From contig JAIBAQ010000032.1 of assembly GCA_019695095.1 (NCBI GenBank), forward strand, positions 1-41,333: DNA of 41,333 bases. The letters are read 5' to 3'. The notes under the pieces are model-generated. The model made no database searches. It was given only the letters and a program-made list of their open reading frames with translations, and was not told where the DNA came from. The translations under genes were made by a program, and so were the position numbers. This DNA comes from Candidatus Hydrogenedentota bacterium. Lineage in GTDB: Bacteria; Hydrogenedentota; Hydrogenedentia; Hydrogenedentales; SLHB01. Each line of letters begins with the position of its first letter. The first letter of the stretch is position 1. This document shows positions 13,230-29,536 of the stretch, piece after piece.

Positions 13230-13251
13230 ATTCTCAACCCACTGCGACACG

Positions 13252-14646
13252 ATGAACGACACGAACGCTCCCAACGATCCGCGTACACGGCTCCCATCAG
13301 TCTCTAAACTGCTGGATACACCGGAATGCCAGTCGTATGTCGCCCGGTATTCCCGGCCAATCGTCTTGGATGCGGTCCGTTCTGTTCTCGATGGGTATAG
13401 AAACACTCTTGACAAAATCGAGGCCGTTCCTGGCGTCGAGGTAGTGCTTGAGCAGACCCGCCTGCGCCTGGAAGAGGATTCTCTTGACCGTCTTCGTCCG
13501 GTCGTCAACGCGACGGGAATCATCCTTCACACGGGCTTGGGCCGGGCCGTGCTGCCGCGTCAGGCCGCGCAGGCGCTTGGGCAGCAAGACCGGTGCTGCA
13601 ACATACAGATTGACCTCGCGTCCGGTTTGCGAGGCAAGCGCAATTACGAGTGCCAGCGGCTGCTTTGCGCGCTGACCGGCGCGGAGGACGCGCTTCTCGT
13701 CAACAATAACGCCGCCGCGACCCTGCTAATCCTGGCCTCATTGTGCGCGGGCAAAGACGTAATCGTATCCCGGGGGCAGCTTATCGAGATAGGCGGCTCC
13801 TACCGTCTGCCCGACTGCGTGCATCAGAGCGGAGCGCACCTCGTCGAAGTGGGAACGACCAATAAAACGCATCTACGCGATTACGAGGCCGCGCTAACGG
13901 AAGAGACGGGAGCGATTCTCCGGGTCAATCCCAGCAACTACCGCATTGTTGGATTCTCCAAGGAAGTCTCCATAGGCGAGTTGGTTAGTTTGAAGGAAAA
14001 GACGCCGGCGCTTGTCATAGACGACTTGGGGTGCGGTGCGCTCGTCGATCTGACTCAGTTCGGTTTGCCGCACGAGCCTACCGTGCAAGAGAGCGTGGCG
14101 GCAGGAGCCGACCTTGTGTGTTTCAGCGGAGACAAGCTCATTGGGGGTCCTCAATGCGGGATCATCGTGGGCAAGAAGGCATTGGTACAGCGGATTCGCA
14201 AGCACCCGCTGACACGAATGCTGCGCGTGTGCAAGCTGACCGACGTGGCGCTGGAGCACACGCTGCGGTTGTTCCTTACTCCCGAAACGCTCGTCGCGAA
14301 CAATCCCACGCTCAGAATGTTGGCGGCTCCGGTCAACGAATTGAAGTCGGCCGCCGTCTTACTGAAGGAGCAGTTGGACGCCGCCGGGACCTCGTTCACC
14401 GTTTCGGTGGAAGCAGGGGAGAGTGCCATGGGGGGCGGATCGCTTCCGGCGACTCCGATTCCGACCTGTCTGTTGACGGTACGTGACGGTGGCATGTCAG
14501 CCGAACGATTGAGTGCGTTGTTGCGGCGCAACGAGCCGCCCATTATTGCCCGTATCGCGGACGACAAGGTCGTATTCGATATGCGGACCTTGTTGGAAGG
14601 CGAGGCCGCCATCGTGCTTGAGGCCCTCAAGCGGCTCAGCGCGTGA
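13252..14646 (+). CDS. selA: L-seryl-tRNA(Sec) selenium transferase
   Basis: This 464-residue pyridoxal-phosphate enzyme converts Ser-tRNA(Sec) to Sec-tRNA(Sec) using selenophosphate. The family signature NATGIILHTGLGRA is near residue 85. The cofactor-binding lysine is in FSGDKLIGGPQCGII (K295 by this numbering, matching the family position). An alternative GTG at 13201 would put coding sequence inside tRNA-Sec and is rejected; the ATG at 13252 leads into the normal SelA N-terminus (RTRLPSVSKLLD). It is followed 25 bases later by selD. Confidence 0.97.
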   Translation: MNDTNAPNDPRTRLPSVSKLLDTPECQSYVARYSRPIVLDAVRSVLDGYRNTLDKIEAVPGVEVVLEQTRLRLEEDSLDRLRPVVNATGIILHTGLGRAVLPRQAAQALGQQDRCCNIQIDLASGLRGKRNYECQRLLCALTGAEDALLVNNNAAATLLILASLCAGKDVIVSRGQLIEIGGSYRLPDCVHQSGAHLVEVGTTNKTHLRDYEAALTEETGAILRVNPSNYRIVGFSKEVSIGELVSLKEKTPALVIDDLGCGALVDLTQFGLPHEPTVQESVAAGADLVCFSGDKLIGGPQCGIIVGKKALVQRIRKHPLTRMLRVCKLTDVALEHTLRLFLTPETLVANNPTLRMLAAPVNELKSAAVLLKEQLDAAGTSFTVSVEAGESAMGGGSLPATPIPTCLLTVRDGGMSAERLSALLRRNEPPIIARIADDKVVFDMRTLLEGEAAIVLEALKRLSA

Positions 14647-14671
14647 CGATTCTTGAGAGAAGGGGAGGGTG

Positions 14672-16312
14672 ATGCCTGAACAGGGGATAGCGGTCGATCC
14701 TATCCGGCGCGAAACCGTTATGTCTCGCTCGCAGAAGCTGGGTCACTGTGTGTGCAACCTCAAGCAACCGTGTCCGTGCCCGGAACTCGTGGAGCAGAAT
14801 ATCTGTCACTGCGCGGGCGAGCGGCCCGCCAATAAGCCGAAAAACATTGCCCTGACCAAGCATGTGCGCAAGGCGGGGTGCGCATCCAAGATCGGCCAAG
14901 CCGATCTCCTTCAGATTATCAAGAATCTTCCTTCGGTGACGGACCCACGCGTACTTCTGGGTGCTGCAGCGGGTGATGACGCCGGGGTGTATCGCCTTGA
15001 TGAACACCGTTCGCTTGTCCAAACCGTGGACGTATTCACGCCTTGCGTCGACGATCCCTATTTGTTCGGCCAGATCGCTGCGGCAAATTCGTTGAGCGAC
15101 GTCTATGCAATGGGAGGGCAACCGCTGACGGCCCTGTCCATTGTCGGATTCCCAATCGATGAACTTGATGGGTCCATCATGGAGGCGATGTTGCGTGGCG
15201 GTATGGACAAGCTGGCCGAGGCGAACTGCGCCTTGCTCGGCGGGCACAGCATTAACGATCCCGAGATCAAGTGCGGATTCGCAGTTACCGGTCTGATCGA
15301 CACCGAACGGGTCGTTGCGCGCGATCGGGCGTTGCCCGGCGACGTGCTCGTATTGACCAAACCGCTGGGTACCGGGCTGGCGGCGTATGCGGCCCAGTTG
15401 GGGCGTTGTGAACCGGACGCGTTAACAGATGCAGGCATGGCGATGGCGACCCTCAACAAGGATGCCGCCGAACTGATGTGCCGGTATCAGGCGCATGCGT
15501 GCACGGACATCACCGGATTCGGTCTCGCGGGCCACTTGGTCTCGATGGCACGCGGAAGCGGCGTCGTTGCCGAGGTGGATATGACGCGGCTTCCCGTTTT
15601 CGGAATCGCGGCCGCGTGTTTGCGGGAAGAGATATTACCTGGAGCCGTCGATCGGAACCGTGCTTATGCGATGGCGTGGATGCGGATAACGGATGATGGG
15701 CACCCTGAGAATCTGCCGATCCTGTTCGACCCGCAAACGTCGGGAGGATTGTTGATCGCTTTACCGGAAGACAGGGCCGCGCAGTTGGTGGCGGACTTGA
15801 ATGCCCGCGGCCACAAGGGCGTGGCAGTCATCGGCCGCATACGAGCATCGGAAGACGGCGAGGGACGCGTGGCCGTAACAAACACCCAACTGAGCAACTT
15901 TGTGGGAGCATTGCCATCCCTCAAGACGGCAACTACGGAGGAAAGTCACGTGACGGATTCGGTTGAGGACGGCACGTCGTGCTGCGGCGATCTCTTCGAA
16001 GAGCAAGGGACCAACGAGGCCGAAGTCCTAGCCGTATTCCAGGACTTCATGAAGAAGGCCAATGAGCCAGGGCGTATTGACCGGCGTGCGAAGAAGTTGA
16101 TGGCCGTCATTCTTTCGATTGCGCACAAGTGCAAGCCGTGCCTGGCCATTCACCTCAAGGGCGCGTTGGCCATGGGCATCTCCCAGGCCGAGATCGACGA
16201 GGCCGCCAACCTCGCTATCGCGTTCGGCGGATGCACGGCGATGGTGTTCTACAAGGAAGCCGTCGACGAGCTCGCTGCGCAACGAGCAAAGAACCGGGGG
16301 GGAAAGGAGTAG
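14672..16312 (+). CDS. selD: Selenophosphate synthase fused to a C-terminal AhpD-like domain
   Basis: This 546-residue protein has three parts. Residues 1-55 are an unusual Cys-rich extension (C26, C28, C34, C36, C45, C47). Residues about 56-425 are selenophosphate synthase, with the active-site motif LTKHVRKAGCASK (C70, K73; the Cys form, not Sec), GDDAGVY, NSLSDVYAMGG and FDPQTSGGLL. Residues 427-546 resemble the AhpD/carboxymuconolactone decarboxylase fold, with a CKPC redox pair (C487, C490) in SIAHKCKPCLAIHLKGAL. A GTG immediately before the ATG is also possible as start. The frame is continuous through the fusion, but a strong internal ribosome-binding site and GTG precede the last domain. 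The SelD part makes selenophosphate from selenide and ATP; the AhpD part may supply reducing power, which is inference. Confidence 0.93.
   Translation: MPEQGIAVDPIRRETVMSRSQKLGHCVCNLKQPCPCPELVEQNICHCAGERPANKPKNIALTKHVRKAGCASKIGQADLLQIIKNLPSVTDPRVLLGAAAGDDAGVYRLDEHRSLVQTVDVFTPCVDDPYLFGQIAAANSLSDVYAMGGQPLTALSIVGFPIDELDGSIMEAMLRGGMDKLAEANCALLGGHSINDPEIKCGFAVTGLIDTERVVARDRALPGDVLVLTKPLGTGLAAYAAQLGRCEPDALTDAGMAMATLNKDAAELMCRYQAHACTDITGFGLAGHLVSMARGSGVVAEVDMTRLPVFGIAAACLREEILPGAVDRNRAYAMAWMRITDDGHPENLPILFDPQTSGGLLIALPEDRAAQLVADLNARGHKGVAVIGRIRASEDGEGRVAVTNTQLSNFVGALPSLKTATTEESHVTDSVEDGTSCCGDLFEEQGTNEAEVLAVFQDFMKKANEPGRIDRRAKKLMAVILSIAHKCKPCLAIHLKGALAMGISQAEIDEAANLAIAFGGCTAMVFYKEAVDELAAQRAKNRGGKE
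15937..15952 (+). promoter_or_regulatory. Internal ribosome-binding site and GTG start before the AhpD-like domain of selD
   Basis: GGAGG (15937-15941) is followed 8 bases later by an in-frame GTG (15950-15952) exactly at the domain boundary. This could start a free 120-residue AhpD-like protein in addition to the fusion. Confidence 0.55.
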
Positions 16313-16316
16313 ACGC

Positions 16317-18350
16317 GTGTCGCCGTTACCCAGCACCGTTCGCCGGCCGCCTGGCCTGCTCACGAAAGAGCAGGATCCGGATGTCGTGATGATGGTGTGC
16401 ACGGCGGGGCACGTCGACCACGGGAAGACGAGTTTGGTCAAGCTGCTGACGGGCTGCAATACCGACAAGCTCAAAGCCGAACAAGATCGGGGCATGACCA
16501 TCGAGCTGGGGTTTGCCCCGTGCTTCCTGGGCGGCAACGAGTGCGTCGGCATTGTGGACGTGCCGGGTCACGAGAGTTTCATCCGCAACATGGTGGCGGG
16601 CGTGTCGGGAATCGATCTGTGCGTTCTCGTGATTGCCGCGGACGACGGAATCATGCCGCAGACCGTCGAACACGTGCAGATAATGGAACTATTGGGCGTG
16701 CGACGTGGGATTGTCGCGCTTACGAAGATCGACCTTGTACCCGAGGAAATGGTGGCGCAACGTGTCGAGGAAATCGCGGCGTATCTTCAGACTACGTTTC
16801 TGGCCGGGTCGTCCATATGCCCCGTATCGTCGGAAACCGGAGCCGGTTTCTTCGAATTCTACGACGTGCTCGTGAAAGCTATTCGCTCCCTTCAGAAACA
16901 GCGCCGCGAAGGCGTGTTTCGCATGCCCATCGAGCGGAGCTTCCTGCAACCGGGATTCGGGGCCATTGTGACGGGCGTCGCTATCGCCGGGCGAATCTCC
17001 GTGGGCGACGCCGTGGAAATTGTACCGGGTCACCGCATTGGAAAAGTCCGGGGAATGCAGCGTTTTCTTCGCAGCACCGGAGAGGCGGAGTACGCCCAAT
17101 GCCTGGCGTTGAACATCGCGGAACCTGGAAAGGAAGCCTTCGAGAGGGGACAGATCGTTTCGCTGCCCGGCTACCTGCGGGAATCCGCCATCTTTCATGT
17201 GCGTATCCAGACAGTCTCGGAGGTATCGCCGCCTTTACGCAACGCCGAGGCAATCAAGTTCCACATCGGCACAGCGGAAGAGGTGGGCAAAGTCTACCTG
17301 CTGGAGGATGCGGAACTCGGGGCGTCCGCTTCCGCGTTGGCGACCATTCAGTTGAATCGTCCCGTAGCGGCCGTCGCCTATGATCGTTTTATTCTCCGAC
17401 GCGCATCTCCTCATGCGACTATTGCAGGTGGCCGCATTCTTGACATTGTTTACGAGCCGCACCGACCGCCCAAAAAACACGCCTTGGAGATTCTGCGAAC
17501 CCAAGAGGCCTTTCTGGGGATAGATTCCAAGACGTTGTTTGCGCTCGACACCGGAGACGAGACGTTCGCAATGCGACTGATTCAACATCGTCTGAAGACC
17601 GTGTTTCGCCACGGGGCCACGGCGGATGCCTTGGCTCACGCCACAGTCATGACGCCCGCCATGGTGGAACGGTCGCTCGACGCGCTTGTCAAGGAAGGGA
17701 GCGTGTCCGCGATGGGTGAAGGCGCTTTCATCGATAGCCAAACCTATCGAGAGAGCCTGGACGAAGTGGTAGCGCGCCTGAATCACGCGCGCGACGTAGA
17801 AGGGGCGATGACCGTGACGTTGAGCGCGTTGCGGCAGAGTCTCGACTGGCCAGATGCGCTTTGGAAGCGGGTTCGCCGCGAGTTGGAGGACCGCAAACTC
17901 GCGGAATTCCGTGGCAACCAGATTGTGCTTCAGGGGGCCGAGTCCTCACTCAGGGCAGATGAGCGTCTATTATTAGGGAAGATTCTCGGAATCTATCGCG
18001 AACAGGGGTTTCATTCGCCCAGACCCGAGGAATTACCCGAGTTGACCGGTGGCACGCCGGCGCAAACGGAGCGCCTTCTCGAGTTTCTCTGCCACGACGG
18101 ACGTCTCGTCCGGCTGGCTAAGAACGTCGTTCTGAGCAGAGAACACTGCCTGAAGGCGCAGGAGTTAGTTATCAGCATCATTCAAGAGAAGGGGGTGCTT
18201 GACAGCGCCGATTTCAAGTACGCCATCGACTCGTCGCGCAAGTATGCGCTTTCTATTCTCGACTTTTTCGATGCGCGCCACGTGACGGTTCGGCAGGGAA
18301 ATGACCGAAAGCTGGCGCCCAACTACCAGCGGAACGTGCTGACACCATGA
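16317..18350 (+). CDS. selB: Selenocysteine-specific elongation factor SelB
   Basis: This 677-residue GTPase brings Sec-tRNA(Sec) to the ribosome and reads the SECIS hairpin. The G domain begins GHVDHGKTSL (residues 31-40), with DRGMTIELGFAP, DVPGHESFIRNM and TKIDLV. Domains II and III follow (FGAIVTGV, then the Sec-tRNA pocket region). Residues about 440-677 form the C-terminal winged-helix array that binds mRNA. The GTG start (16317) has GGAG 7 bases upstream and lies 4 bases after selD; an ATG at 16386 is a weaker alternative. Its stop overlaps the start of the next gene (ATGA). Confidence 0.96.
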   Translation: MSPLPSTVRRPPGLLTKEQDPDVVMMVCTAGHVDHGKTSLVKLLTGCNTDKLKAEQDRGMTIELGFAPCFLGGNECVGIVDVPGHESFIRNMVAGVSGIDLCVLVIAADDGIMPQTVEHVQIMELLGVRRGIVALTKIDLVPEEMVAQRVEEIAAYLQTTFLAGSSICPVSSETGAGFFEFYDVLVKAIRSLQKQRREGVFRMPIERSFLQPGFGAIVTGVAIAGRISVGDAVEIVPGHRIGKVRGMQRFLRSTGEAEYAQCLALNIAEPGKEAFERGQIVSLPGYLRESAIFHVRIQTVSEVSPPLRNAEAIKFHIGTAEEVGKVYLLEDAELGASASALATIQLNRPVAAVAYDRFILRRASPHATIAGGRILDIVYEPHRPPKKHALEILRTQEAFLGIDSKTLFALDTGDETFAMRLIQHRLKTVFRHGATADALAHATVMTPAMVERSLDALVKEGSVSAMGEGAFIDSQTYRESLDEVVARLNHARDVEGAMTVTLSALRQSLDWPDALWKRVRRELEDRKLAEFRGNQIVLQGAESSLRADERLLLGKILGIYREQGFHSPRPEELPELTGGTPAQTERLLEFLCHDGRLVRLAKNVVLSREHCLKAQELVISIIQEKGVLDSADFKYAIDSSRKYALSILDFFDARHVTVRQGNDRKLAPNYQRNVLTP

Positions 18351-18613
18351 AACGTTTTTCCAGAGAGCGGTTAGCCGCGTGGGCCGTGGTGGTGTTGGCC
18401 TTGGCTCTGCTCGTTTTCGGGACGGTGCACACGCATCAGGTGTTCGACCCGACCGTTGAAGAATTCGGCATGGTTGCCTTCATGAAGCTGCCCGATTGGC
18501 AGATGGTCATCGATTCCACGTTTGGCGGCGTAACCCGAAAAGACGGGAAGCTGTACAGCACCTATGACCGGGCGGAGTCGCGCGGCAAACGCGCCTGCCC
18601 CACTTGACAATGA
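18347..18613 (+). CDS. Small membrane-anchored selenoprotein candidate ending Cys-Pro-Thr-Sec-Gln
   Basis: A conventional reading stops at the UGA at 18605 and gives 86 residues. I propose that this UGA codes Sec (U87), followed by Gln and a real UGA stop (18611-18613), for 88 residues. It has one N-terminal membrane helix (WAVVVLALALLVFGTV) and an outward-facing domain of about 60 residues. The tail ACPTUQ is a CxxU redox pair with Sec as the second-last residue, as in C-terminal Sec enzymes. A 6-bp GC hairpin with loop CATGGGC follows, with CATGG 19 bases after the UGA, the same distance as in the three large paralogues. The start overlaps the selB stop. The function is unknown; a thiol/selenol electron carrier is likely. 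Confidence 0.72.
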
Positions 18614-18620
18614 TCCACTT

Positions 18621-18639
18621 GGCGGCCATGGGCGCCGCC
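18621..18639 (+). promoter_or_regulatory. SECIS-like hairpin for the CPTU small protein
   Basis: GGCGGC (18621-18626) pairs with GCCGCC (18634-18639) around the 7-base loop CATGGGC. The stem starts 13 bases after the UGA at 18605-18607 and the loop 19 bases after. It lies beyond the proposed real stop codon, so its stem and loop are free of coding constraint. Confidence 0.68.
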
Positions 18640-18652
18640 TCAGGAATCGTCT

Positions 18653-19480
18653 ATGCTTGAGAATCTGAGAGTACGTACCATTGAGCGAAGGGTCACACAA
18701 GTCCTATCGCTGATAGCTCTGCACAGTTCATGGGGGCCGGAGTTCAAATGGCTCTGCAACCCCGTGTTGAGTTGTCATTCGTGCGTTTTGGCGTGGTTCG
18801 CGTGCCCGGTGGGCGTTTTTGTTCACTACTCGGGTTTTCACACGATTCCGTTCCTTGCCCTGGGAATGGTGCTGCTGCTCGGCGTTACCGTGGGCAGGCT
18901 TCTCTGCGGGTGGGTCTGTCCGTTTGGCTTCCTGCAGGACCTGCTGTACAAGATCCCCAGCCCGAAGTTCCATCTCCCGGCCTGGACGGCAAAACTTAAA
19001 TACGTCGTACTGGCGCTAACCGTGATCGCGTTGCCGTTCGTTTTCGGTGAGCAGACGTGGCTGTCATTCTGCCGAGTATGCCCGGCTTCGGCGCTTCAAG
19101 TCACCATTCCCAACATCATAATCGGTGGCGTATCCACGCTGAGCGTGGCGTCGATAGTTAAGCTGGCCATCCTTGTCGTGGTTCTTGTCGCGGCAGTGCT
19201 GAGCAGCCGGTCCTTCTGCAAAGTCATCTGCCCGATCGGGGCAATTCTTGCACCGCTCAATCTGTTGTCGTTCTGGAAGATTAAGGTGCCGACCCAGAAC
19301 TGCTCGGGATGTCAGAAGTGCAACCATGCGTGTCCGCAAGACGGGTTGCCGCAACTGCGTGTAGCGCAAGGTGTCTCTGCCAGCCGCACGGCGGAATGCG
19401 TGTTTTGCTACGAGTGTCAGACCACCTGCCCGATGCCGTTGCTTGAGGCGCAGGCGCGCGCGGAGGAAGGCCAATCATGA
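18653..19480 (+). CDS. NapH/YccM-like polytopic 4Fe-4S membrane protein
   Basis: This 275-residue electron-transfer protein resembles NapH/NosR-type quinol-side carriers. The N-terminal half has Cys-rich loops between membrane helices (NPVLSCHSC with FACPVGVF, then CGWVCPFGFLQDL). Further motifs are CRVCPASALQ and CKVICPIGAILAPL. The soluble C-terminal part has two ferredoxin-type clusters (CSGCQKCNHACP and CVFCYECQTTCP). AGGA lies 7 bases before its ATG. It follows the CxxU small protein by 39 bases in the same frame, and its stop overlaps the start of the first large selenoprotein (ATGA). It likely feeds electrons from the membrane to these redox proteins, which is inference from context. 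Confidence 0.9.
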   Translation: MLENLRVRTIERRVTQVLSLIALHSSWGPEFKWLCNPVLSCHSCVLAWFACPVGVFVHYSGFHTIPFLALGMVLLLGVTVGRLLCGWVCPFGFLQDLLYKIPSPKFHLPAWTAKLKYVVLALTVIALPFVFGEQTWLSFCRVCPASALQVTIPNIIIGGVSTLSVASIVKLAILVVVLVAAVLSSRSFCKVICPIGAILAPLNLLSFWKIKVPTQNCSGCQKCNHACPQDGLPQLRVAQGVSASRTAECVFCYECQTTCPMPLLEAQARAEEGQS

Positions 19481-20937
19481 GAATCCCCCACGTGCGAGTG
19501 CTTGTGCTGGCAATGGCAGCGATGGCTCAAGTGCTTGCGCTTGAGGTGCCTCTGAGATACTTCTCCCCTCCCATGGGTCTCGAGAACGCGCGACGTAGCG
19601 GGACGCAGTGTGTTACGGTTTCCCAGACTCCGCCTCCCGGCGAATGGAAGCTGCCGCCGATGGTTGCCCGCATTCCACTATTTGGATTGGCTAAGCTAGG
19701 TGATGCGAAGCACCTCATTGTCTTGGACTGCGCGAATCCGAGCGATCAGTTCTACACGCGCTTTCTTTTCGATGCGAATGCTAACCGCGATCTGACCGAC
19801 GACCCAGTCGTCACGGGACGATGCCATTGGGAGTCAGATGGCCATCGCGTCAGCATGAGATCCAGGCAAGGTATCGAACTGGACGTATTGACCGGTGAGG
19901 GCAAGACTCACTACGAATTCGACTTTGAGGTCCAAGGGGGATTCTCAACGAGGTTTCCGGACATAGGCGATTCGAGCAATCTCCACGATATCAGGATCTA
20001 CTTATACTCGCGAAACTGGTACGTGACAGCTCTCGATATAGACGGCACGCGCTACGGCATCGAGATTGATGATAGGAATATGAACGGCCGTTTTGGCGAT
20101 ACGGCAAGAATTCCGCCTGACCTCGTGCGCGGAAATAGGTTGATTTGTGAAGGAGACCGCATTCACATCAGCGACGAGGGCGGTTACGACTACTACAACG
20201 AGATGAACCTCACCGACAAGCTTGCCTTGGGCGATAAGCTCTTTAAGGTGCAAGTCGATACCGCCGGATTGAGACTTATCCTGACCCCAATAACCGAGAA
20301 TCTCTCCGCTATCAAGATCCCGGAAGGCGTTGAGCGACTGGTTGTTCTGGACGCGAACGGTTCAACCGGCATCGCGGCATTTCGTCCCGGAAAGGTCTTG
20401 CGCGTGCCTGCGGGTGAATATCGGTTGCAGTTCTATCAGCTTCTGCGCAAAGACAAGGAGGGTGACCTCTGGCGCTTGAATGCGAACGGCATCGCCTACG
20501 ACCAAACCGTCACCGCCACGACCGGCGCCGAGGCTGTACTCGCCATGGGAGAGCCATTCAGGCCCGTTGTGAAGGGACGGATACTATCGCGCGACGCAAG
20601 TTACACGGGGCAACCTGAATCGCGTTTGGCATTTGGAGTATGCGGCAAAGGGAACGAGATGGTAACGGACCTGTCTCGCATTCGCGGCAACAGTTCCGCA
20701 ATCGCGATGTCCACCACAATCAACCACCGTCCCAAGGAGCCAACGTATAAGGTAGTCAGCAAAGATGGCGAAGTGGTGGCTCAAGGCCAATTCGAGTATG
20801 GGTGAGGATTCAGTTGCTCAGCCACATGGGTTGGCTACAAAATCAATGAAGAGTACACGGTCCTTTGCACTTATGTTGCGGGCCCGTTCGAAACAGAAGT
20901 GAAGGCGCAACCACTGGAGATCACGTTCATTAGGTAA
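19477..20937 (+). CDS. Candidate selenoprotein, tandem paralogue 1 (Sec at codon 443)
   Basis: The frame reads 442 codons to a UGA (20803-20805), then 43 more to a TAA, so 486 residues if UGA is Sec. A signal peptide ends near LALEVPLRY. Two Asp/Asn-rich EF-hand-like loops are visible (FDANANRDLTDDP near residue 98 and DDRNMNGRFGD near 200). The C-terminal part has RPKEPTYKVVSKDGEV and then QFEYG-U-GFSCSATW, LCTYVAGPF and AQPLE. The post-UGA part is conserved in paralogues 2 and 3, and a hairpin with loop CATGG follows at 19 bases. It overlaps the NapH-like gene by ATGA. I recognise no named family. A periplasmic redox protein is inferred from the signal peptide and the U...C pair (UGFSC). 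Confidence 0.82.
20820..20836 (+). promoter_or_regulatory. SECIS-like hairpin, paralogue 1
   Basis: AGCCA (20820-20824) pairs with TGGCT (20832-20836) around the loop CATGGGT. TTG (20814-20816) and CAA (20838-20840) can extend the stem across an internal loop. CATGG begins 19 bases after the UGA. Confidence 0.68.
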
Positions 20938-21004
20938 CGGCTTTCGTTGAGGGAATGCGATGAGTTGCGGAGTTGCCCATTTGGAGCATGTGAATACAAT
21001 GGCC

Positions 21005-21033
21005 TTGTCAGAATTCTATTGCTATGGTACTAT
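21005..21033 (+). promoter_or_regulatory. Sigma70-type promoter for paralogue 2
   Basis: TTGTCA (21005-21010), a 17-base spacer and TACTAT (21028-21033) match consensus at 5 of 6 positions each. The start codon is about 300 bases downstream, so the message has a long 5' leader. Confidence 0.6.
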
Positions 21034-21152
21034 GCGAGCAAGTAGTAGAAGGCGCAGAGTCGCGTTGAGGGGGCGGCCTATGCGGATGCGCGAGAGTTCT
21101 GAGTCTCCAAGGGGGAACCCATCTCTGCCCGGTGTTTACTCGACCAGACTGT

Positions 21153-21212
21153 GCAATGTGAGAGCGGTTAATGCTGTCTCTGTTGATCGTTTTTCAGACG
21201 TTAACACATTGC
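21153..21212 (+). promoter_or_regulatory. Long nested hairpin in the paralogue 2 leader
   Basis: GCAATGTG (21153-21160) and CACATTGC (21205-21212) form a perfect 8-bp outer stem. TTAA/TTAA and GTCT/AGAC can pair inside it, leaving an apical region with a T-run. It may be a regulatory leader structure; no known riboswitch was recognised. Confidence 0.35.
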
Positions 21213-21337
21213 ATGGGGGGAACCATCGAACCTAGTTTAAGCATCGGCGATTCGCGGTGTAGTTCCGACTCGATTCTAACACGGTGGATCGGTTGGAAGT
21301 GACTCGCGATAGCCGGAAAACGACAGGGGGCCGCAGT

Positions 21338-22786
21338 ATGAGATATACACGACTCGCGGTGCTGGTTTTGGGGGTGGCGCTTGTTGCGCCAGCCTTTGCG
21401 CTGGAAGTCCCGCTGAGGTATTCCGCCTATCCCCAGGACTTGCGTGAATTTCGACCGTATGGAAATCAGCATGTTCGGACGGTGACTACCGTGCCTGAGG
21501 GGGACTGGAAATTACCTCCCTTGGTGGCCAAGGTACCGCTGTACGGACTGGTTGAGTTCGGAGACAGCAAGTACCTCATGGTGCTGGACTTCGCCAATGC
21601 GAACGACAAGTTTTACTCGCGCATTTTGTTCGACGCCAATGCCAACCGGGACCTCACGGACGATCCCGTGGTGGATGGTAAATGCAATTGGGCTGACAAC
21701 AATCAGTATGCCTTTATTGAGATGAGGCAGGCGGTTGATGTCGAGTTCACTCTTGGCGGCGCGAAAGTGAAGTACAGTTTTCGTCCGCAGGCCAATGCAT
21801 GGTTCCCCAATTCGTCGGTTGACCTATCCAAGCCGGAGAACCTGCAGAACATCACCGTTTATCTGCGGACAAACTGTTCGTACTCGGGCGAATTCGATCT
21901 GGATGGAGTTCACTACGGAGTTGAGTTGGGCGATCGCAACGCAAACGGACGGTTCAACGACATTGCCGAAGTGCCGGCCGAGATGAGAGGCGACGATCGT
22001 CTGTATGCTCAAGGCGACAGCTTCTACATCAACATCGACGCGAAGAACGATTACTACAATGAGATGAGCCTTGGCGACAAGCTTGTGCTGGGAGATAAGG
22101 TTTTCAAAGTCGAGATCAATACCCCCGAATCGAAAATGGTATTGACGCCGATCACGGAGAACCTCTCCGCTGTCAAGCTTCCGGAGAAACTTGAGCGGCT
22201 GGTGTTGCTGGAAGACTCACTCAAGAACGGCGTCATGGTGTTTCGTCCCGAAAAGACGGTGACCGTGCCTGAAGGCAACTATCGACTTCTGTATTACCAA
22301 ATACTCAGGGAAGACAAGGAAGGCGATCTGTGGCGCTTGATTGCAATGGGTTCCAGAAAGGCCAACGCATTCACGGCGAAGAAGGGCGGGCACGTCGCGC
22401 TGGAAATGGGCGAGCCCTTCCGTCCGATTGTCGAAGTGCCGGAATGGGCGCGAAGCAATATGCGCGGCGGAAGCAACGAGGTGAACCTGTCATTCGTCAT
22501 TCGCGGTAAAGGCGACGAGATGGTGGCGGACCTGAGCCGTATTCGCGGTAACAAGACCAAACTGCCGATGTCCGCAAAAGACGGTTCCCGCCCCAAAGAA
22601 CCCACCTATAAGATTGTCAAACAGGACGGCGAAGTGGCCAAACAAGGCCAGTTCGAGTATGGGTGAGGATTCAGTTGCTCGGCCACATGGAGTGGCTACA
22701 AGAAAGACGAGAAGTACAACGTTTTGTGCACGTTTGTGGCAGGACCTTTCGATACCAAGATAAAGGCTCAGCCACTGGAGTTCTGA
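21338..22786 (+). CDS. Candidate selenoprotein, tandem paralogue 2 (Sec at codon 443)
   Basis: The ATG at 21338 has AGGGGG 7 bases upstream and starts a clean signal peptide (MRYTRLAVLVLGVALVAPA, cleavage near AFA-LE). The frame reads 442 codons to a UGA (22664-22666), then 39 codons to a second UGA (22784) that acts as the stop, for 482 residues. It shares with paralogue 1 the loops FDANANRDLTDDP and GDRNANGRFND, the segment NDYYNEMSLGDKL, MGEPFRPIV, RIRGNK and the tail QFEYG-U-GFSCSATW, LCTFVAGPF, AQPLE. It has its own promoter and long leader. Expression may therefore differ from paralogue 1. The function is unknown. Confidence 0.82.
22681..22697 (+). promoter_or_regulatory. SECIS-like hairpin, paralogue 2
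   Basis: GGCCA (22681-22685) pairs with TGGCT (22693-22697), including one G-U, around CATGGAG; an extra inner C-G pair is possible. The outermost pair is A-U in paralogue 1 and G-U here, so pairing is kept despite base change. CATGG begins 19 bases after the UGA. Confidence 0.68.
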
Positions 22787-22805
22787 AGAAGAGAGAGTCT
22801 GAATG

Positions 22806-22837
22806 GGGAGAGGGTAACGCAGGCGTTGCCCTCTCCC
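22806..22837. terminator. Long hairpin between paralogues 2 and 3
   Basis: A 15-bp near-perfect inverted repeat (GGGAGAGGGTAACGC / GCGTTGCCCTCTCCC, one wobble) starts 19 bases after the final stop of paralogue 2. It is followed by ATTTG rather than a long T-run, so it may terminate only partly or act as an mRNA 3' stabiliser. Confidence 0.6.
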
Positions 22838-22897
22838 ATTTGAAGGCGACAAGTCCGCGTCCGGGCGACCGAGGGGGCCTGAGCAGGATTACGTGCG

Positions 22898-24337
22898 ATG
22901 AGAGTCTTTTCGATACTCGTATTCCTTTTTGCGGTGGGGGCGAATGCCGCGCCGATTGAGGCGCCTTTGCAGTTTAAGGCGTATAAGGATGGGATAGACT
23001 CCTTGTTGTCTTGGAGTCCGTCGCAGGTGGTTCTTTCAAAACAGCCGCCCGCCGGCGAGTGGAAGCTGCCGAGTCTGAAGAGCAGCGTTCCCGCATTTGC
23101 ACTACTGAAACTGGCGGATACGGAGTTTCTAATCGTTCTGGACAACAAGTCGCCAAAAGATCCCTTCTATACCCGCCTTTACTTCGATGCAAATGCGAAC
23201 CGCGACTTGACAGACGACCCGGAAGTTGCCACGGCCGGCGACTATAGTTGGTGGTTTGGCAGTGCCAGGCTGAGTACGACCTCGGCAGTCAATGTCACGT
23301 TTCCGGTGAACGGTCAACTTGTGCCGTATGCCTTTTCGATTCATGTAAGCTGCGGCTTTTCAGGTTTTTCGACGAGCCTAAAGCAAAATGGAAATTGGGA
23401 ACGGCTGAGTTTTTACGTCCAGCCCAGTTGCTTGCTCGCGGGTGAGTTCGATTACGCAGGAGAACACTATCTCGTAAGCCTTTGCGATCAAAACTGCAAC
23501 GGCCGCTTTGACGACCCGGCGGCGCGGCCACAAAATGGAGTTGCGGACTATTACTTCAATTCCGGCGACGCGATGTTCATTACCACCGGCCGTCAAGTCG
23601 AGTACGGGGACGAGGTGGGGATGGGCGGCTATCTCGGAATTAAGGATACCCTCTTTCAAGTTCAGGTGGATCGCGTTGCGAACAAGATGACGTTGATACC
23701 GGTCACCGAGAGTCTTGGAAAGCTCAACCTTCCGCAAGGCGTTGTGCGCCTGGTGCTCGCTCGAACAGACACCAAAAGCGCCGTTACAGTGATCGACTCG
23801 GGGCCATCGATCGCCTTGCCCGCCGGAGAATATCGCGTCTATTCGTACAGCGTTGCGCGCAAAGACGCCTCCGGGAAGTACTGGAGACTCGAGGCGCGAG
23901 GCTCTGCCAAAGGAATTGCGAGCCGGGTGGTCGAAGGAAAGGAGACTACGCTGGTAGCCTGCGATCCTTTTCAGCCGCGCATGAAGCTGGCGTATTACAG
24001 AGAACCTGGATTCCTGGATTGGGAAGGAAGCGCATCGTTTGACTTCCAATTAAGAGGGGCTGCTGGAGAGGAGGTCGTTGGCTTATATTGCGGGGGCAAG
24101 ACCCCAACGGATCCGCTTTCATCCCTGCAATGGACCCGGCCCCCCAAGTCTCCCACCTACAAAATCATGACCAGCGACGGTCAGATCGTTGCGCAGGGCC
24201 AATTTGAGTATGGGTGAGGATTTAGTTGCAGGGCCACATGGCGTGGCTACAAACCCGATTCGGACTATCGTGCCTTGTGCACAGTTGATATCGGCCCGTT
24301 CAAGACTTCGGTCGAGGCGCAGCCTATCGAAAAGTAG
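22898..24337 (+). CDS. Candidate selenoprotein, tandem paralogue 3 (Sec at codon 440)
   Basis: This is the most diverged of the three copies. The ATG at 22898 has AGGA 9 bases upstream and starts a signal peptide (VFSILVFLFAVGANA). The frame reads 439 codons to a UGA (24215-24217), then 39 codons to a TAG, for 479 residues. It keeps FDANANRDLTDDP, CDQNCNGRFDDP, the PTYKIMTSDGQ segment and the tail QFEYG-U-GFSCRATW, ALCTVDIGPF, AQPIE. The tail after UGA keeps W, GYK, LCT, GPF and AQP despite divergence elsewhere, which argues that it is translated. The final stop is TAG, so a UGA-specific recoding event is required. Confidence 0.82.
24232..24248 (+). promoter_or_regulatory. SECIS-like hairpin, paralogue 3
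   Basis: GGCCA (24232-24236) pairs with TGGCT (24244-24248) around CATGGCG, with an extra inner C-G pair possible. CATGG begins 19 bases after the UGA. The loop's last two bases differ from the other copies while CATGG is kept. Confidence 0.68.
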
Positions 24338-24436
24338 ACGCGCAAGATCACAGTGTTTCGTTGAGGAGGGGCGATGCTTGCGTCGCCTCTTTTTGATTGG
24401 TGCGGGGGCGAAGTCCGCGAGGGAAAGGATTTGCGC

Positions 24437-25246
24437 GTGAAGACATTGTCGGCAGTTCGCTTGGAGGATGTTCAGGCCGTTTATGGCGGGGCCGAGGGTA
24501 CGTTGTGGGAATTGCTGATGGGAGAACAAATCCACATCGGTGGATTCGAATCATCTCTGGATCTTGCGCAAAACGCTGGGATAGCACCCGGAATGCATGG
24601 AGTGGACCTTTGTTGCTGCACCGGAGCGGGGATGCGGTTTCTGTGTCGCGTGTGCGGCGTTGACCACATGACTGGCGTCGATGCCACCGAGCGCGTTGTG
24701 ACGCTTGGGCGGTCCCGTTGCGAGGCAGAAGGATTGGCAGACAGGATTGACTTCGTCCCCGGCTTGGCGACAGATACCGGACTGCAAGAGGGGAAGTTCG
24801 ATTTCGTGTGGGGGGAGGATGCCTGGTGTTACGTCGAGGACAAGCAAGCGCTGGTCGCCGAAGCGGCGCGACTGGTGAGGCCGGGCGGCGTTGTTGCATT
24901 CACGGATTGGATTGAAGGAGAAGCGGGACTTTCACAAGAAGAATCGGAGCGATTCCTGTCCTTCATGAAGTTTCCGTCGCTGTGGGACCGCGAGACGTAT
25001 TTGGAGGCGTTGGAGGCGAGCGGATGCATCCCGCAAATTGCGGCGGATACAGGGCGCTTTGGCCCATTTGCGCAACTGTATTCGACGCTTCTGTCGTCGC
25101 AGTTTCGGCTGGATGCATTGAAGATAATTGGCTTCGATGAAACGGTCATGCGGGCCATCGAAGGCGAGATGGCGTTTGTCGTCGAATTGGCGCAAGCGGG
25201 GAAGATAGCACAAGGCCTATTCGTCGCGCGCAAGAGTGGCGGATAA
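24437..25246 (+). CDS. SAM-dependent methyltransferase (class I)
   Basis: This methyltransferase of about 269 residues starts at GTG 24437 with AAAGGA 7 bases upstream; an in-frame ATG at 24374 with GGAGG is a possible longer start. The N-terminus has LWELLMGEQIHIGGFESSLD. The SAM-binding motif I is GVDLCCCTGAGMRFL, motif II is GVDATERVV, and WGEDAWCYVEDK with LVRPGGVVAFTDW are the later class I motifs. The protein belongs to the group near sarcosine/dimethylglycine-type methyltransferases by general look. It is directly followed by three dehydratase-like genes, so it probably modifies the same substrate or a cofactor of that system. The substrate is not identifiable from sequence. Confidence 0.85.
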   Translation: MKTLSAVRLEDVQAVYGGAEGTLWELLMGEQIHIGGFESSLDLAQNAGIAPGMHGVDLCCCTGAGMRFLCRVCGVDHMTGVDATERVVTLGRSRCEAEGLADRIDFVPGLATDTGLQEGKFDFVWGEDAWCYVEDKQALVAEAARLVRPGGVVAFTDWIEGEAGLSQEESERFLSFMKFPSLWDRETYLEALEASGCIPQIAADTGRFGPFAQLYSTLLSSQFRLDALKIIGFDETVMRAIEGEMAFVVELAQAGKIAQGLFVARKSGG

Positions 25247-25259
25247 GGGAGAGCGCATC

Positions 25260-26471
25260 GTGAACACGTGTGATTCGGTATCCACGAAACCTTCCTGCGG
25301 CAGCAATAACGGGGCCGTTGCGGATTCGGGCGACCCCCTGGGGTGGTTTGCGAATACGATTTCGCACAGCCTGACCTACGCCCAAATCCAGCGCGCGCAA
25401 GGCCGGCCGATTGTGGGGATGATGTGCGAGTTCACCCCGCGTGAACTTATTATGGCGGCGGGCGCCATACCGGTGTGCCTGTGCGCGGGGTCCGCGGCCA
25501 CGATTCCCGCGGCGGAACGGCATCTGCCCGCGAATCTCTGTCCCATGATCAAATCCGCATACGGCTACCATGTGGAACGGTCGAATCCGTTTCTCGAAAT
25601 GTCGGACCTGATCGTTGCGGAGACAACCTGCGACGGCAAGAAGAAGATGTATGAGTTGATGGCCGAATCGAGAGCGATGCATGTGGTTCAACTTCCACAT
25701 GAGCAAAATGGGAAAGACGCCCTCGAATACTGGGTTAACGAGCTGTATTGCCTGAAGGAGGCGCTTGAGCGGAGATTCAAGATAGAGATTGACGAGACCA
25801 GACTGCGCGAGTCCATACACACGATGAATCGTGAGCGTTCGTTACGTCGAAGACTGGCTCAGTTGATGAAGCGCGACGCGCCGCCTTTGACGGGGAGGCA
25901 ACTCGCGCAACTGCGCTCGAATACTTCCGGAATCCCCGAGGACCTCCGGCAATACGAGCGGGCCTTGGCCATGCTGGAAGGACGTGAGGCGTGCCCCAAA
26001 ACGGCGAAGAAGGTGCGTGTACTGCTGACCGGTGTTCCAATGGCGTTCGGGGCCGAACGTGTGCTCGACATAATCGAAGGCTCTGGGGGGCTTGTCGTTT
26101 GTACGGAGAGCTGTACGGGACTGAAGCCGATCTATGAAGACGTCGACATTGACGCGCCGGATCTCATGCGCGCTCTCGCGACCAAGTACTTCCATTTACC
26201 GTGTTCCGTCATGTCGCGAAATACGGACCGTCTGGATCTTTTGCGCAACCTTGCGGTCGAGTACCGGCCCGATTGTGTCGTCGAGCTTATTTGGCAGGCG
26301 TGTTTAACGTATGATGTTGAGTCCTTCTACGTGAAACGTCTCGCGGAGGAGGAGCTTCAGATTCCGTATCTTCGTATCGAGACCGATTATGCTCCGGCGG
26401 ACTCGGCGCGCATTCAAGTGCGCGTCGAAGCTCTGCTTGAAACGGCCAAAGGACGTAAACAGCGAGTTTGA
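25260..26471 (+). CDS. 2-hydroxyacyl-CoA dehydratase/benzoyl-CoA reductase-like protein A (HgdB family)
   Basis: This 403-residue HgdB/BcrC-family subunit starts at GTG 25260 with AAGGGA 9 bases upstream; a GTG at 25236 would overlap the methyltransferase. Family hallmarks are FTPRELIMAAGAIPVCLCAG, the cluster cysteines in LPANLCPMIKSAYGY, ETTCDGKKKMYEL and LIWQACLTYDVES, and the C-terminal IPYLRIETDY...RVEALLE. Such proteins hold a 4Fe-4S or double-cubane cluster and accept electrons from an ATP-driven activator. All three cluster cysteines are present, so it should be active. The substrate is unknown. Confidence 0.88.
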   Translation: MNTCDSVSTKPSCGSNNGAVADSGDPLGWFANTISHSLTYAQIQRAQGRPIVGMMCEFTPRELIMAAGAIPVCLCAGSAATIPAAERHLPANLCPMIKSAYGYHVERSNPFLEMSDLIVAETTCDGKKKMYELMAESRAMHVVQLPHEQNGKDALEYWVNELYCLKEALERRFKIEIDETRLRESIHTMNRERSLRRRLAQLMKRDAPPLTGRQLAQLRSNTSGIPEDLRQYERALAMLEGREACPKTAKKVRVLLTGVPMAFGAERVLDIIEGSGGLVVCTESCTGLKPIYEDVDIDAPDLMRALATKYFHLPCSVMSRNTDRLDLLRNLAVEYRPDCVVELIWQACLTYDVESFYVKRLAEEELQIPYLRIETDYAPADSARIQVRVEALLETAKGRKQRV

Positions 26472-26472
26472 T

Positions 26473-27396
26473 ATGCCGACGACAAACATCCCCATCGCCT
26501 ACGTGTCGCCCTTTATACCTCGCGAGTGGGTCGCGGCACACGGTTGCACGCCCATCCGCGTAACGGCACGTGCCGCGCGCGGAACCACATTCGATGGTCA
26601 AGGCGTCTGCTACTTTTGCCATTCCTTGGCAGAATCCATGATGCAAGTGGAGGAAGCGGCGGCTGTGGTGATGGCGACCACGTGCGATCAGATGCGCCGC
26701 ATGGCGGAACGCCTATCCACCGAACTCTCGAAGCCGGTCTTTCTCATGAATGTTCCCGCGACGTGGCGAACTGAGACTGCGCGCACGATCTATCGCGACG
26801 AATTGCGGCGCTTGGGCGACTTCTTGGTGGAACTCGGAGGGCGCCGCCCATCGGTAGACGAGTTCGTCGCCGCGGCGAACGCATGCGGTCAACGCGCCGA
26901 CGATCTATTGTACTCGCGCGGAGGCAATTTCAATTCCGCCGAATCCAGGGGAGACTCGATTCCAATTCTTCTTTTGGGAAGTCCTGACTTGCGGGAGCAT
27001 GAAGAGCTTGTCGAGTGTATTCGCCAAGCGGGAGGTCACGTCGAGGTCGATGGGCGGGAGGGCGTAGAACGCACGTACCCGTTGTCCATCGACAAGGTGC
27101 TCGCGGAACAAGACCCCATCGAGGCGATGGTCGATGCGTACTTCGATCAGATTCCAGGGGCATTCCGCAGGCCGAACGACGCGCTATACACGTGGGTGGA
27201 GCAGGTTGTGAAGACGCGGGGCATCTGCGGGGCAATCGTTGGGCACTATGTGTCGTGCGACCCCTGGCATGCGGAGAGCCACCGGCTTAAGGAACGATTG
27301 GACATACCATGTCTTGTGCTTGACTACGACGAATGCCCTGATATCAGCGAGCGCGCAAAGGGGCGAATTCATGCGTTTATGGAGACCCTGCGATGA
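26473..27396 (+). CDS. 2-hydroxyacyl-CoA dehydratase-like protein B
   Basis: This 307-residue HgdB-family protein starts at ATG 26473, one base after the stop of protein A. It has FIPREWVAAHGCTPIRV, cluster-type cysteines in GVCYFCHSLAES and MATTCDQMRRMAE, and HYVSCDPWHAESHRLKERL, followed by CLVLDYDECPD in place of the usual lEtDy. It is shorter than protein A, mainly in the middle region. It may form a heterodimer with A or C; that is inference from coupling. Confidence 0.85.
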   Translation: MPTTNIPIAYVSPFIPREWVAAHGCTPIRVTARAARGTTFDGQGVCYFCHSLAESMMQVEEAAAVVMATTCDQMRRMAERLSTELSKPVFLMNVPATWRTETARTIYRDELRRLGDFLVELGGRRPSVDEFVAAANACGQRADDLLYSRGGNFNSAESRGDSIPILLLGSPDLREHEELVECIRQAGGHVEVDGREGVERTYPLSIDKVLAEQDPIEAMVDAYFDQIPGAFRRPNDALYTWVEQVVKTRGICGAIVGHYVSCDPWHAESHRLKERLDIPCLVLDYDECPDISERAKGRIHAFMETLR

Positions 27397-28787
27397 GTGT
27401 GCCTCCTGCAAAGATATCGTTTGCCGAATGGGAAACGCGGTTTGAATCGTGTTCCGGGTCCGCCCCGGATACGGATGGGCTTGTCCCCTTGAGCCGCCAC
27501 CTTCGCGAGGGCGATGCGCGTCTGCCGAAGCTACAGTACGACAATTCCGTCGCGGCGTTGCGACTATGGAACTTGGTTCTCGGCGAGGAAGACCGTCTTC
27601 ACGAGGCGCGCGTAGCAGGCAAGAAGATCGTGGGAACCATGAAGGACCTGGGCACGATCCCCTTGATTGCATATGCCGCGCCAAATCTCGTCGCGTTTTA
27701 TCCCGACGGCGCATGGTGGACGCCCTGCATAATGGAGGACAGCACCGGTCTTCTGCCTGTCGCGGATTCGCTAGGCTTGGGAGATTCCTTCTGCCCGGTT
27801 CGGGCGATGGTGGGAGCATTCGTCACGCGCGCGCATTTCCCGTTGCCGGATATGCTTGTGTGCAGTGTGGGAGCCACCTGCGACGATTTTTCCGCGATTG
27901 CGCAACGCCTTGAAGGGTTAGGGTACCCCATCGTGTGGTGGGAAATGCCTCACCGCCGCCGGCCTTTGAACGGGGAAGAATCCGTTGAATTGGCCGCGCC
28001 TCATCGCGCGCCCGTGCGGTTGATGCAGTATGTGATAAAGGAGTTGGAACGCATCCGCGAACTCCTGAGCGATTTGTCCGGCTACAGCATCAATGACGAA
28101 GCCTTGATGCAGAGTATCCGCAAGGCTAACCGCATTCGCGCGGTGCTCCGGGAATTGCGCGAGCTTGCCTTCACCGCAGATCCTTGCCCGTTGCCGGCCC
28201 TTGAGGTGATGCTTGCGGAGATGTTAGCCATTCATTTTTGTTCCGACCCCGCACAGTCCGAATCGATCTTGGATGACTTGCTTACGACGGTAAAGTCGCG
28301 CGCCGCTTCCAAGCAAGGAGTCTTGCCTGAAGGTGCGGTTCGCGTGTTTTGGGTGAACCCCGTAGCGGACCTTCGCGTACTGAATGTGCTGGAAGAGAGC
28401 GGAGGACGGCTATGCGGCACCGACTTCATGTTTGGTCATGCCATAGAGCCAATCCCGCAAGACACTTCTCCCATGGAAGCGTTGGCGCGAATGGCACTTT
28501 CCGATCCCATGGTTGGGACCACTGCAGATCGCGCCCTCGCGATTTGTCAGGAAGCGGAGCGGCTGAAGGCGGAAGCCGTGGTCATCTCGCGAATTCCGGG
28601 CGCGAGTCATTGCACGTATGAAGGTCGCGCGATACGGACCATTGTTCAAGATCGTTTGGCGTTGCCGGTTGTGGAAATTGAGGTTCCTCCCGTGTGCGAT
28701 TCTCTGTTGCCCTCGTTGCGAACGAGACTGGAGGCCCTCATCGAGACGGTCCTGGAGAAGAGAGACTCATGCTTGTCGCAGGCGTAG
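27393..28787 (+). CDS. 2-hydroxyacyl-CoA dehydratase-like protein C
   Basis: This 464-residue protein overlaps the stop of protein B (ATGA). It has an N-terminal extension of about 65 residues (FAEWETRFESC...VAALRLWNLVLGEEDR). The HgdB-type core follows, with DSFCPVRAMVGAFV, VCSVGATCDDFSAIAQRL and a C-terminal SHCTYEGRAIRTIVQDRL. The final electron-cluster region is more diverged than in A. It is probably the third member of a heteromeric or chain-like complex, which is unusual because known systems use two such subunits. Confidence 0.82.
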   Translation: MSVPPAKISFAEWETRFESCSGSAPDTDGLVPLSRHLREGDARLPKLQYDNSVAALRLWNLVLGEEDRLHEARVAGKKIVGTMKDLGTIPLIAYAAPNLVAFYPDGAWWTPCIMEDSTGLLPVADSLGLGDSFCPVRAMVGAFVTRAHFPLPDMLVCSVGATCDDFSAIAQRLEGLGYPIVWWEMPHRRRPLNGEESVELAAPHRAPVRLMQYVIKELERIRELLSDLSGYSINDEALMQSIRKANRIRAVLRELRELAFTADPCPLPALEVMLAEMLAIHFCSDPAQSESILDDLLTTVKSRAASKQGVLPEGAVRVFWVNPVADLRVLNVLEESGGRLCGTDFMFGHAIEPIPQDTSPMEALARMALSDPMVGTTADRALAICQEAERLKAEAVVISRIPGASHCTYEGRAIRTIVQDRLALPVVEIEVPPVCDSLLPSLRTRLEALIETVLEKRDSCLSQA

Positions 28788-29536
28788 ACGCGGGATCGCG
28801 TGCCGTGAAGCTGGTCCTGTGGGACCGTGCCGAAGGCCGATCTCTGGCAGCGGGCATGCTGGATCAGGGTGTGCAGCAGGATGCTCTGGCCAACGACTTG
28901 CTGGAGCGTTTGTTGGCCGAGGCGGGTTGCAGCCGAGACGATTTGCGTGGTGTCGTCGCAACGGGCTATGGGCGAAACATAGTCAGTTTCGCGGACAGAA
29001 CCATCACGGAGATTACGTGTCATGCACACGGCGTCCGCCACGTGATGCCCGAAGCGCGCACCATCATTGATATCGGCGGACAAGACTGCAAAGTGATTCA
29101 TCTGGACGACCGCGGAAACGTCTACGACTTCTCCATGAACGACCGCTGCGCGGCGGGAAGCGGGCGCTTCTTGGAGATGGTGGCGTCGCGGCTGGACGTC
29201 AGTCTGAACCACTTGGCCGAACTCTCGAATCGAAGCGCGTCGCCTGCTGCTATCAGCAGCATGTGTGTCGTCTTCGCGGAAACGGAGATTGTCGGCCTGC
29301 TTGCCACCGGCACACCTTCCGAAGACATCGTCGCAGGCGTGTTGCAATCGCTGGCGCGGCGCGTGGCCGGCATGATGGGCCGCGTCAAAGACGGCCCAGT
29401 TGTCTTCACTGGAGGAGCCGCTCAGATTTCGGGATTGGTAGATGCCCTGGAAGAGGCTTTGGAACGGCCGGTTATCGTTGCTCCGGAACCGCAAATGACC
29501 GGCGCATTGGGCGCCGCGCTTAACGCATTGCAGTAG
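28769..29536 (+). CDS. ATP-dependent activator of 2-hydroxyacyl-CoA dehydratase (HgdC/BcrD family)
   Basis: This 255-residue homodimeric ASKHA-fold ATPase couples ATP hydrolysis to low-potential electron transfer through one 4Fe-4S cluster. It has GVDAGSRAVKLVLWD, DIGGQDCKVIHL, NDRCAAGSGRFLEM and SSMCVVFAETE (the two cluster cysteines), and a C-terminal FTGGAA phosphate motif. The ATG (28769) overlaps the end of protein C by 19 bases. Its 3' end overlaps the convergent ArnT-like gene by 17 bases. Confidence 0.93.
   Translation: MLVAGVDAGSRAVKLVLWDRAEGRSLAAGMLDQGVQQDALANDLLERLLAEAGCSRDDLRGVVATGYGRNIVSFADRTITEITCHAHGVRHVMPEARTIIDIGGQDCKVIHLDDRGNVYDFSMNDRCAAGSGRFLEMVASRLDVSLNHLAELSNRSASPAAISSMCVVFAETEIVGLLATGTPSEDIVAGVLQSLARRVAGMMGRVKDGPVVFTGGAAQISGLVDALEEALERPVIVAPEPQMTGALGAALNALQ

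Follow-up and report, generated by a model that had tools for sequence, protein, structure and literature searches.

Bacterial selenoproteins with a redox pair (UxxC or CxxU, where U is selenocysteine, Sec), as compiled in a 2026 inventory of 119 selenoprotein families, encode Sec by an in-frame UGA, have a nearby Cys, occur with the Sec machinery and carry a bacterial Sec insertion sequence (bSECIS) just downstream, 16-37 nt after the UGA and with a G in the first two loop positions (PMC13188914). The selenoprotein neighbourhoods of Haft and co-workers (Sao, Tso, MduS and MbdU; names as in PMC13188914) gather several selenoproteins in one cluster with methyltransferase and AhpD/CMD-like domains. 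Here we describe a locus with these traits on a 41,333-nt stretch of DNA from a Candidatus Hydrogenedentota bacterium (contig JAIBAQ010000032.1, assembly GCA_019695095.1), referred to throughout as the window. Three of its genes, in tandem, very probably (at roughly 93%) encode exported selenoproteins of an unnamed family, which we call type A, with the UGA read as Sec by SelB-GTP and Sec-tRNA with the help of a downstream hairpin, after which the ribosome would complete the C-terminal beta-sandwich domain bearing the U-x3-C pair. Type A and a second subfamily, type B, depart from the redox-pair selenoproteins of the inventory in their U-x3-C spacing, their Ig/FN3-like beta-sandwich and the lack of any Cys homologue in our searches; the NCBIfam models for Sao, Tso, MduS and MbdU match neither type, nor CPTUx, a small protein of the same cluster. 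Bacterial selenoproteins as a kind are already known, while the families, the fold and the cluster described here appear to be new.

The type A genes and their candidate hairpins are:

19477-20937, plus strand: type A selenoprotein copy 1; UGA at 20803-20805, final TAA; signal peptide, beta-sandwich domains, U443
20820-20836, plus strand: bSECIS of copy 1, AGCCAC-AUGGG-UUGGCU, 5/6 pairs
21338-22786, plus strand: type A selenoprotein copy 2; UGA at 22664-22666, final TGA; U443
22681-22697, plus strand: bSECIS of copy 2, GGCCAC-AUGGA-GUGGCU, 6/6 pairs
22898-24337, plus strand: type A selenoprotein copy 3; UGA at 24215-24217, final TAG; U440
24232-24248, plus strand: bSECIS of copy 3, GGCCAC-AUGGC-GUGGCU, 6/6 pairs

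A preliminary description of this DNA had reported three tandem genes with an in-frame UGA after QFEYG, a frame that stays open for 39-43 codons beyond it, and TAA, TGA and TAG as the final stops. All of this holds: the frame continues for 43, 39 and 39 codons in copies 1, 2 and 3, respectively, which end in those three stops in that order and share the C-terminal pattern ...QFEYG-UGA-GFSC.ATW.GYK...LCT...GPF...AQP.E. Copy 1 is 51% identical to copy 2 and 36% identical to copy 3, and the three tails align without gaps, retaining U, G, Cys, Trp and GPF. The ratio of nonsynonymous to synonymous substitution rates (dN/dS), a check that the same description had proposed, is 0.10 for the tails of copies 1 and 2 and 0.23 for those of copies 2 and 3; purifying selection acts on the tails. 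The type A sequences carry evident signal peptides.

Homologues carry the same arrangement. We surveyed 68 Hydrogenedentota, 392 Planctomycetota, 388 Verrucomicrobiota and 297 Aminicenantes-phylum genomes with a C-terminal-domain profile (A2) in which Cys was written at the UGA position to favour the detection of Cys forms. Among the 73 family matches, 71 hold a single TGA, 2 are free of stops, and TAA and TAG are absent throughout; the location of the UGA at the motif was verified in 65 distinct copies, and the weakest of the other matches rely on the stop count alone. This TGA-only pattern in 71 stop-bearing matches is far beyond chance, and the UAA or UAG codons that the preliminary description had said would speak against a selenoprotein occur in no homologue. 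A full-length protein search found further copies in Hydrogenedentota relatives, each with one TGA, and a degenerate-peptide scan of contigs found homologues also in Aminicenantes, Verrucomicrobia and Planctomycetota. The family thus spans at least four phyla: Hydrogenedentota, Planctomycetota, Verrucomicrobiota and the phylum of Aminicenantes. Planctomycete copies have the motif FEYG-U-GFTCRYSWRVP or similar; one of them (L112:5391-8249) continues for 565 residues past the Sec UGA.

Type B proteins have the motif FEYG-U-GG(T/S)CSYSWRVP and adjoin type A genes at L007-L010, L017, L020, L021 and other loci. About 270-305 codons follow their UGA and encode 5-10 transmembrane (TM)-like segments, which would anchor the protein in the membrane. 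Examples with the UGA in mid-protein are:

L021:195-2225, type B
L021:2225-4258, type B
L101:57-2288, type B
L104:3995-6082, type B, and others

A gene caller that takes the UGA as the end would therefore split these genes or lose about 300 residues together with the membrane domain.

If the UGA were a true stop, the frame beyond it would be a relic or an RNA element, and a bSECIS-like hairpin might conceivably have a role in 3′ untranslated regions. Apart from the purifying selection on the three tails, type B tails of about 300 codons have dN/dS values of 0.30 and 0.36, and other close pairs mostly have tail values of 0.0-0.4; one pair (L071/L072) exceeds 1 because it holds just two synonymous changes. 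In two further paralogues, each adjoining a U-bearing sister, the UGA motif has been replaced by other residues, neither being a Cys form, and the frame is uninterrupted with the tail retained (L080:1501-1806, ...LSYERSDARGFIWSASWDG...; L081:3569-3916, minus strand, ...KMEYEYGGRFGHCGYWWNIP...). With their frames read straight through, these paralogues serve as natural controls, showing that the tail is translated as protein. The predicted structure agrees: the AlphaFold model of copy 2, built with 32 sequences, has a predicted local distance difference test score (pLDDT) of 91.9 and a predicted template modelling score (pTM) of 0.88 with the tail included, and residues 443-482 form three strands of the last beta-sandwich, so that in a protein ending at the UGA this domain would be incomplete. 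We consider termination at the UGA to have a vanishingly small probability. A pseudogenic or relic tail was likewise rejected on the tail selection, the type B tails, the motif-less paralogues and the predicted fold.

The UGA might instead act as a selenium-responsive switch, with full protein made in the presence of selenium and a short form in its absence. Any Sec UGA yields some truncated product, and no Cys copy that could act as a fallback was found; the short form would nonetheless end inside a beta-sandwich, and its use is without support, which makes a switch improbable.

Constraint on the RNA downstream of the UGA points to Sec decoding. We scored six pairs at fixed positions (15-31, 16-30, 17-29, 18-28, 19-27 and 20-26 nt after the UGA) in the 65 copies, and compared them with 1000 runs in which synonymous codons were resampled by each gene's own usage, leaving the protein unchanged. 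Of the 390 possible pairs 370 form, against an expectation of 227±8 and a maximum of 251 among the resampled sets; all six pairs form in 53/65 copies, against 2.5 expected. Sliding the set of pairs to other positions gives 119-236. These slide and resampling controls matter, since the test position was chosen after viewing RNA folds. In an alignment of 48 sequences, 97.9% of cells are paired and every pair shows double changes; double-change cells number 74 and the covariation score reaches 0.702, against 25.8 and 0.189 after shuffling (0/500 for each), the sequences being related, so that these counts are not independent events. The hairpin thus covaries beyond coding need. Its stem variants include GGCCAC/GUGGCC, GUACUC/GAGUAC, GCUCUC/GAGAGC and GUGCGU/ACGCAC, and its apical triplet, 21 nt after the UGA, is UGG in 61/65 copies. 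A model of the hairpin gives the U-bearing sister at L080 42.6 bits and its U-less paralogue 18, and a covariance model (R1) run over the 6.8 Mb draft genome to which the window belongs is convincing only at the three known sites. Neither a generic search for the best hairpin nor folding of the whole region stood out clearly from synonymous resampling (mean z of the minimum free energy about 0), the hairpin being short and fixed in position; the test at fixed positions was decisive.

The genes for Sec synthesis and insertion lie in the same cluster:

13136-13229, plus strand: tRNA-Sec (Rfam RF01852, 75.8 bits)
13201-14646, plus strand: selA (TIGR00474, 536.8 bits); the first start of the open reading frame (ORF) overlaps the tRNA, and the likely start is ATG 13252
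14669-16312, plus strand: selD with a C-terminal CMD/AhpD-like domain
16389-18350, plus strand: selB; the match begins at 16389 within ORF 16119-18350

The selA, selD and selB genes of the window score above their NCBIfam cut-offs, and in an Rfam scan of the window only tRNA-Sec is credible, a mir-3569 match of 27.7 bits falling below its cut-off. The preliminary description had placed the Sec genes directly upstream of the type A genes; they are upstream, but not immediately adjacent, as CPTUx (18347-18613) and a NapH-like gene (18653-19480) intervene. As a side observation, SelD (14669-16312) has a Cys-rich N-terminal extension (CVCNLKQPCPCPELVEQNICHC).

Across genomes, the family travels with this machinery. 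Among Hydrogenedentota, selB above cut-off is present in 6/11 family-positive genomes and 4/57 others (p=7e-4); in a second genome set, selA is found in 20/22 family-positive and 24/52 family-negative genomes (p=2e-4), and in Verrucomicrobiota in 6/6 and 1/20, respectively. It is also present in G023, G064 and G031, in 5/5 of the other-phylum genomes behind L019, L020 and L022-L024, and on the same contig as family genes (within about 20 kb in several cases) in G091, G264, G356, G103, G359, G1053 and G064. Suppression of the UGA without Sec, for instance when near-cognate decoding inserts Trp or Cys and two isoforms result, would explain translated tails too. It sits poorly with tRNA-Sec, selA, selD and selB in the same cluster, with the co-occurrence of the family with selA and selB, with a hairpin that shows compensatory change at the bSECIS distance, and with the complete absence of TAA and TAG from the site; we regard it as highly improbable. 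Separately, genome-wide reassignment of UGA was rejected because TGA terminates ordinary genes of the window, ending about half of 21 genes there.

Some observations count against reading the UGA as Sec. The Cys-for-U homologues that the preliminary description had suggested looking for did not turn up in about 1,140 genomes of the four phyla, even with a profile carrying Cys. Cys homologues are usual for selenoproteins, though not defining. No selA was detected in four family-positive genomes that resemble draft metagenome-assembled genomes (MAGs; G019, G056, G122 and G362), and two of these (G019 and G056) also gave no selB above cut-off. Finally, the loop starts about 20-21 nt after the UGA, within the bSECIS range, and most hairpins of types A and B have a five-base loop with the G in third place; only the three-base UGG loops strictly follow the rule for its position.

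The family lacks a counterpart in the collections that we searched. Pfam, NCBIfam and PDB-sequence searches returned no family match, with one homologue (L023) giving only a match to GEVED below the threshold, and the inventory of 119 families holds no entry with the type A or B motif (PMC13188914), in line with the earlier suggestion of an unrecognised family. The main text of a 2016 paper on planctomycete selenoproteins mentions no such family (PMC4807772). Foldseek with the copy 2 model returned only generic strings of FN3/Ig-like domains, at template modelling scores <=0.16 normalised by query, and in place of a thioredoxin fold with UxxC or CxxU the model is all-beta with U-x3-C spacing. 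The type B model (pLDDT 80.3, pTM 0.67) has beta domains followed, after U, by a helical membrane bundle; its fold search gave weak, local matches to SoxZ-like beta-sandwiches. In 32 full-length type A-like proteins, which were picked for U, only D199, P311, G442 and U443 are invariant. The second Cys is less conserved than U, being displaced or missing in L062, L065, L066 and L079. In L065 (G203:C154), U is present (YGUGSQATGTW) and the partner Cys is missing.

The cluster holds a further probable selenoprotein gene, between selB and the NapH-like gene, where clustering of neighbours located it; the preliminary description was right about the three type A genes and overlooked this fourth:

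18347-18613, plus strand: CPTUx, ending ...RGKRACPT-U-Q-stop; UGA at 18605-18607, then CAA, then TGA at 18611-18613
18621-18639, plus strand: putative SECIS of CPTUx from an RNA fold, GGCGGC-CAUGGGC-GCCGCC, just past the stop

CPTUx is predicted to be a membrane-anchored protein of about 88 residues with a single TM segment; it matches no NCBIfam model, and Pfam only below cut-offs. All copies read CPT-UGA-(Q/K/S/I/L)-stop, with exactly one codon between the UGA and the stop. Nearly all have a hairpin of 6-9 bp with the loop AUGGC, ACGGC or AGGGC about 19-22 nt after the UGA, and stems of this length with AUGGC-like pentaloops were found at 11 homologous sites; the hairpin of the window copy folds with a seven-base loop and scores low in the five-base-loop test. 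A CPTUx profile (A3) run on 80 genomes matched 14/38 family-positive and 0/42 family-negative genomes. These features identify CPTUx as a second, predicted selenoprotein family that had gone unrecognised, with the same kind of hairpin as types A and B. Thioredoxin reductase has a C-terminal tail of Gly-Cys-Sec-Gly, and CPTUx resembles it in its penultimate Sec near a Cys on a mobile C-terminus; with a single TM segment, no flavoprotein and C-P-T-U spacing, CPTUx may work similarly at most and is not a member of that family.

The genes flanking the selenoproteins are:

18653-19480, plus strand: NapH/MauN-like membrane [4Fe-4S] ferredoxin, a recurrent neighbour of CPTUx and types A and B
24374-25246, plus strand: S-adenosylmethionine methyltransferase related to DVU_1556, a recurrent neighbour
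25236-26471, plus strand: double-cubane-cluster anaerobic reductase (HgdB1; HgdB/BcrC superfamily; NF040772, 414.4 against a cut-off of 350 bits)
26389-27396, plus strand: HgdB-like protein 2
27393-28787, plus strand: HgdB-like protein 3
28694-29536, plus strand: ATP-dependent activase (BcrAD/BadFG, acyl-CoA dehydratase activase; TIGR00241, 261 bits)

Like NapH/MauN ferredoxins, the first of these is a membrane protein with Fer4_5 and [4Fe-4S] motifs; it differs in scoring 65.4 bits against TIGR02163, below the cut-off of 213, and represents a subfamily without a name. The HgdB-like proteins number three and stand in a row with one activase (25236-29536); the first of them alone exceeds the double-cubane cut-off, and the other two are divergent. 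HgdB1 with its adjacent activase is thus like the described double-cubane reductases (NF040772), from which the locus differs by the two extra divergent HgdB-like proteins and the association with selenoproteins. In Hydrogenedentota, CPTUx, the NapH-like protein, types A and B, the DVU_1556-like methyltransferase and double-cubane reductases form a recurrent neighbourhood, parts of which are also found in Verrucomicrobiota, Planctomycetota and G1053.

From the motifs and these neighbours, types A and B, CPTUx and the NapH-like protein may together act as an exported, selenium-based redox relay that uses Sec at two of its steps, a proposal we put close to even odds, on the lower side. In this scheme the NapH-like Fe-S protein of the membrane would hand electrons to the mobile CPTU tail, which would relay them to U-x3-C in type A or B; the double-cubane reductase, driven by ATP, might together with its activase feed the NapH-like protein. 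Somewhat more tentatively, the double-cubane reductase would belong with A/B, CPTUx and the NapH-like protein to an undescribed exported selenium electron-transfer system of at least four phyla that has no Cys version.

The same selenoproteins might instead use U-x3-C, outside the cytoplasm, to bind or move a metal, a metalloid or a species of selenium or sulfur, with no electron transfer; we lean against this, while granting it a substantial chance. The fold is Ig/FN3-like rather than thioredoxin-like, type B has its weak SoxZ-like matches, a methyltransferase and SelD-CMD are nearby, and U persists without Cys in L065 and with a displaced Cys in L062, L066 and L079. U-x3-C is nevertheless retained in most copies, and the NapH-like protein, double-cubane reductase and activase are electron-transfer neighbours. 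A redox relay has difficulties of its own: CPTUx has no match in 24/38 family-positive genomes, neighbours vary in Planctomycetota, and the case for redox function is drawn entirely from the motif and the neighbouring genes. Pfam assigns the flanking genes in other phyla to mixed families (sulfatase, EamA, YfhO, M28, Malectin), so that the Planctomycetota neighbours do not fix the function.

Types A/B and CPTUx add two predicted selenoprotein families in phyla with little-studied selenoproteomes. They depart from the usual pattern in the beta-sandwich around Sec, in export, in the lack of any Cys form found and, for type B, in a mid-protein UGA. The fixed, UGG-capped hairpin with its dozens of natural variants lends itself well to testing what SelB requires, and if the redox relay is real, extracytoplasmic selenium chemistry in uncultured bacteria becomes directly testable. 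A distant homologue of the N-terminal domain, from an Actinomycetota MAG (L025:10001-10681), is joined to a TlpA-like thioredoxin domain that carries WCGPC, a hint that the family may belong in a redox setting.

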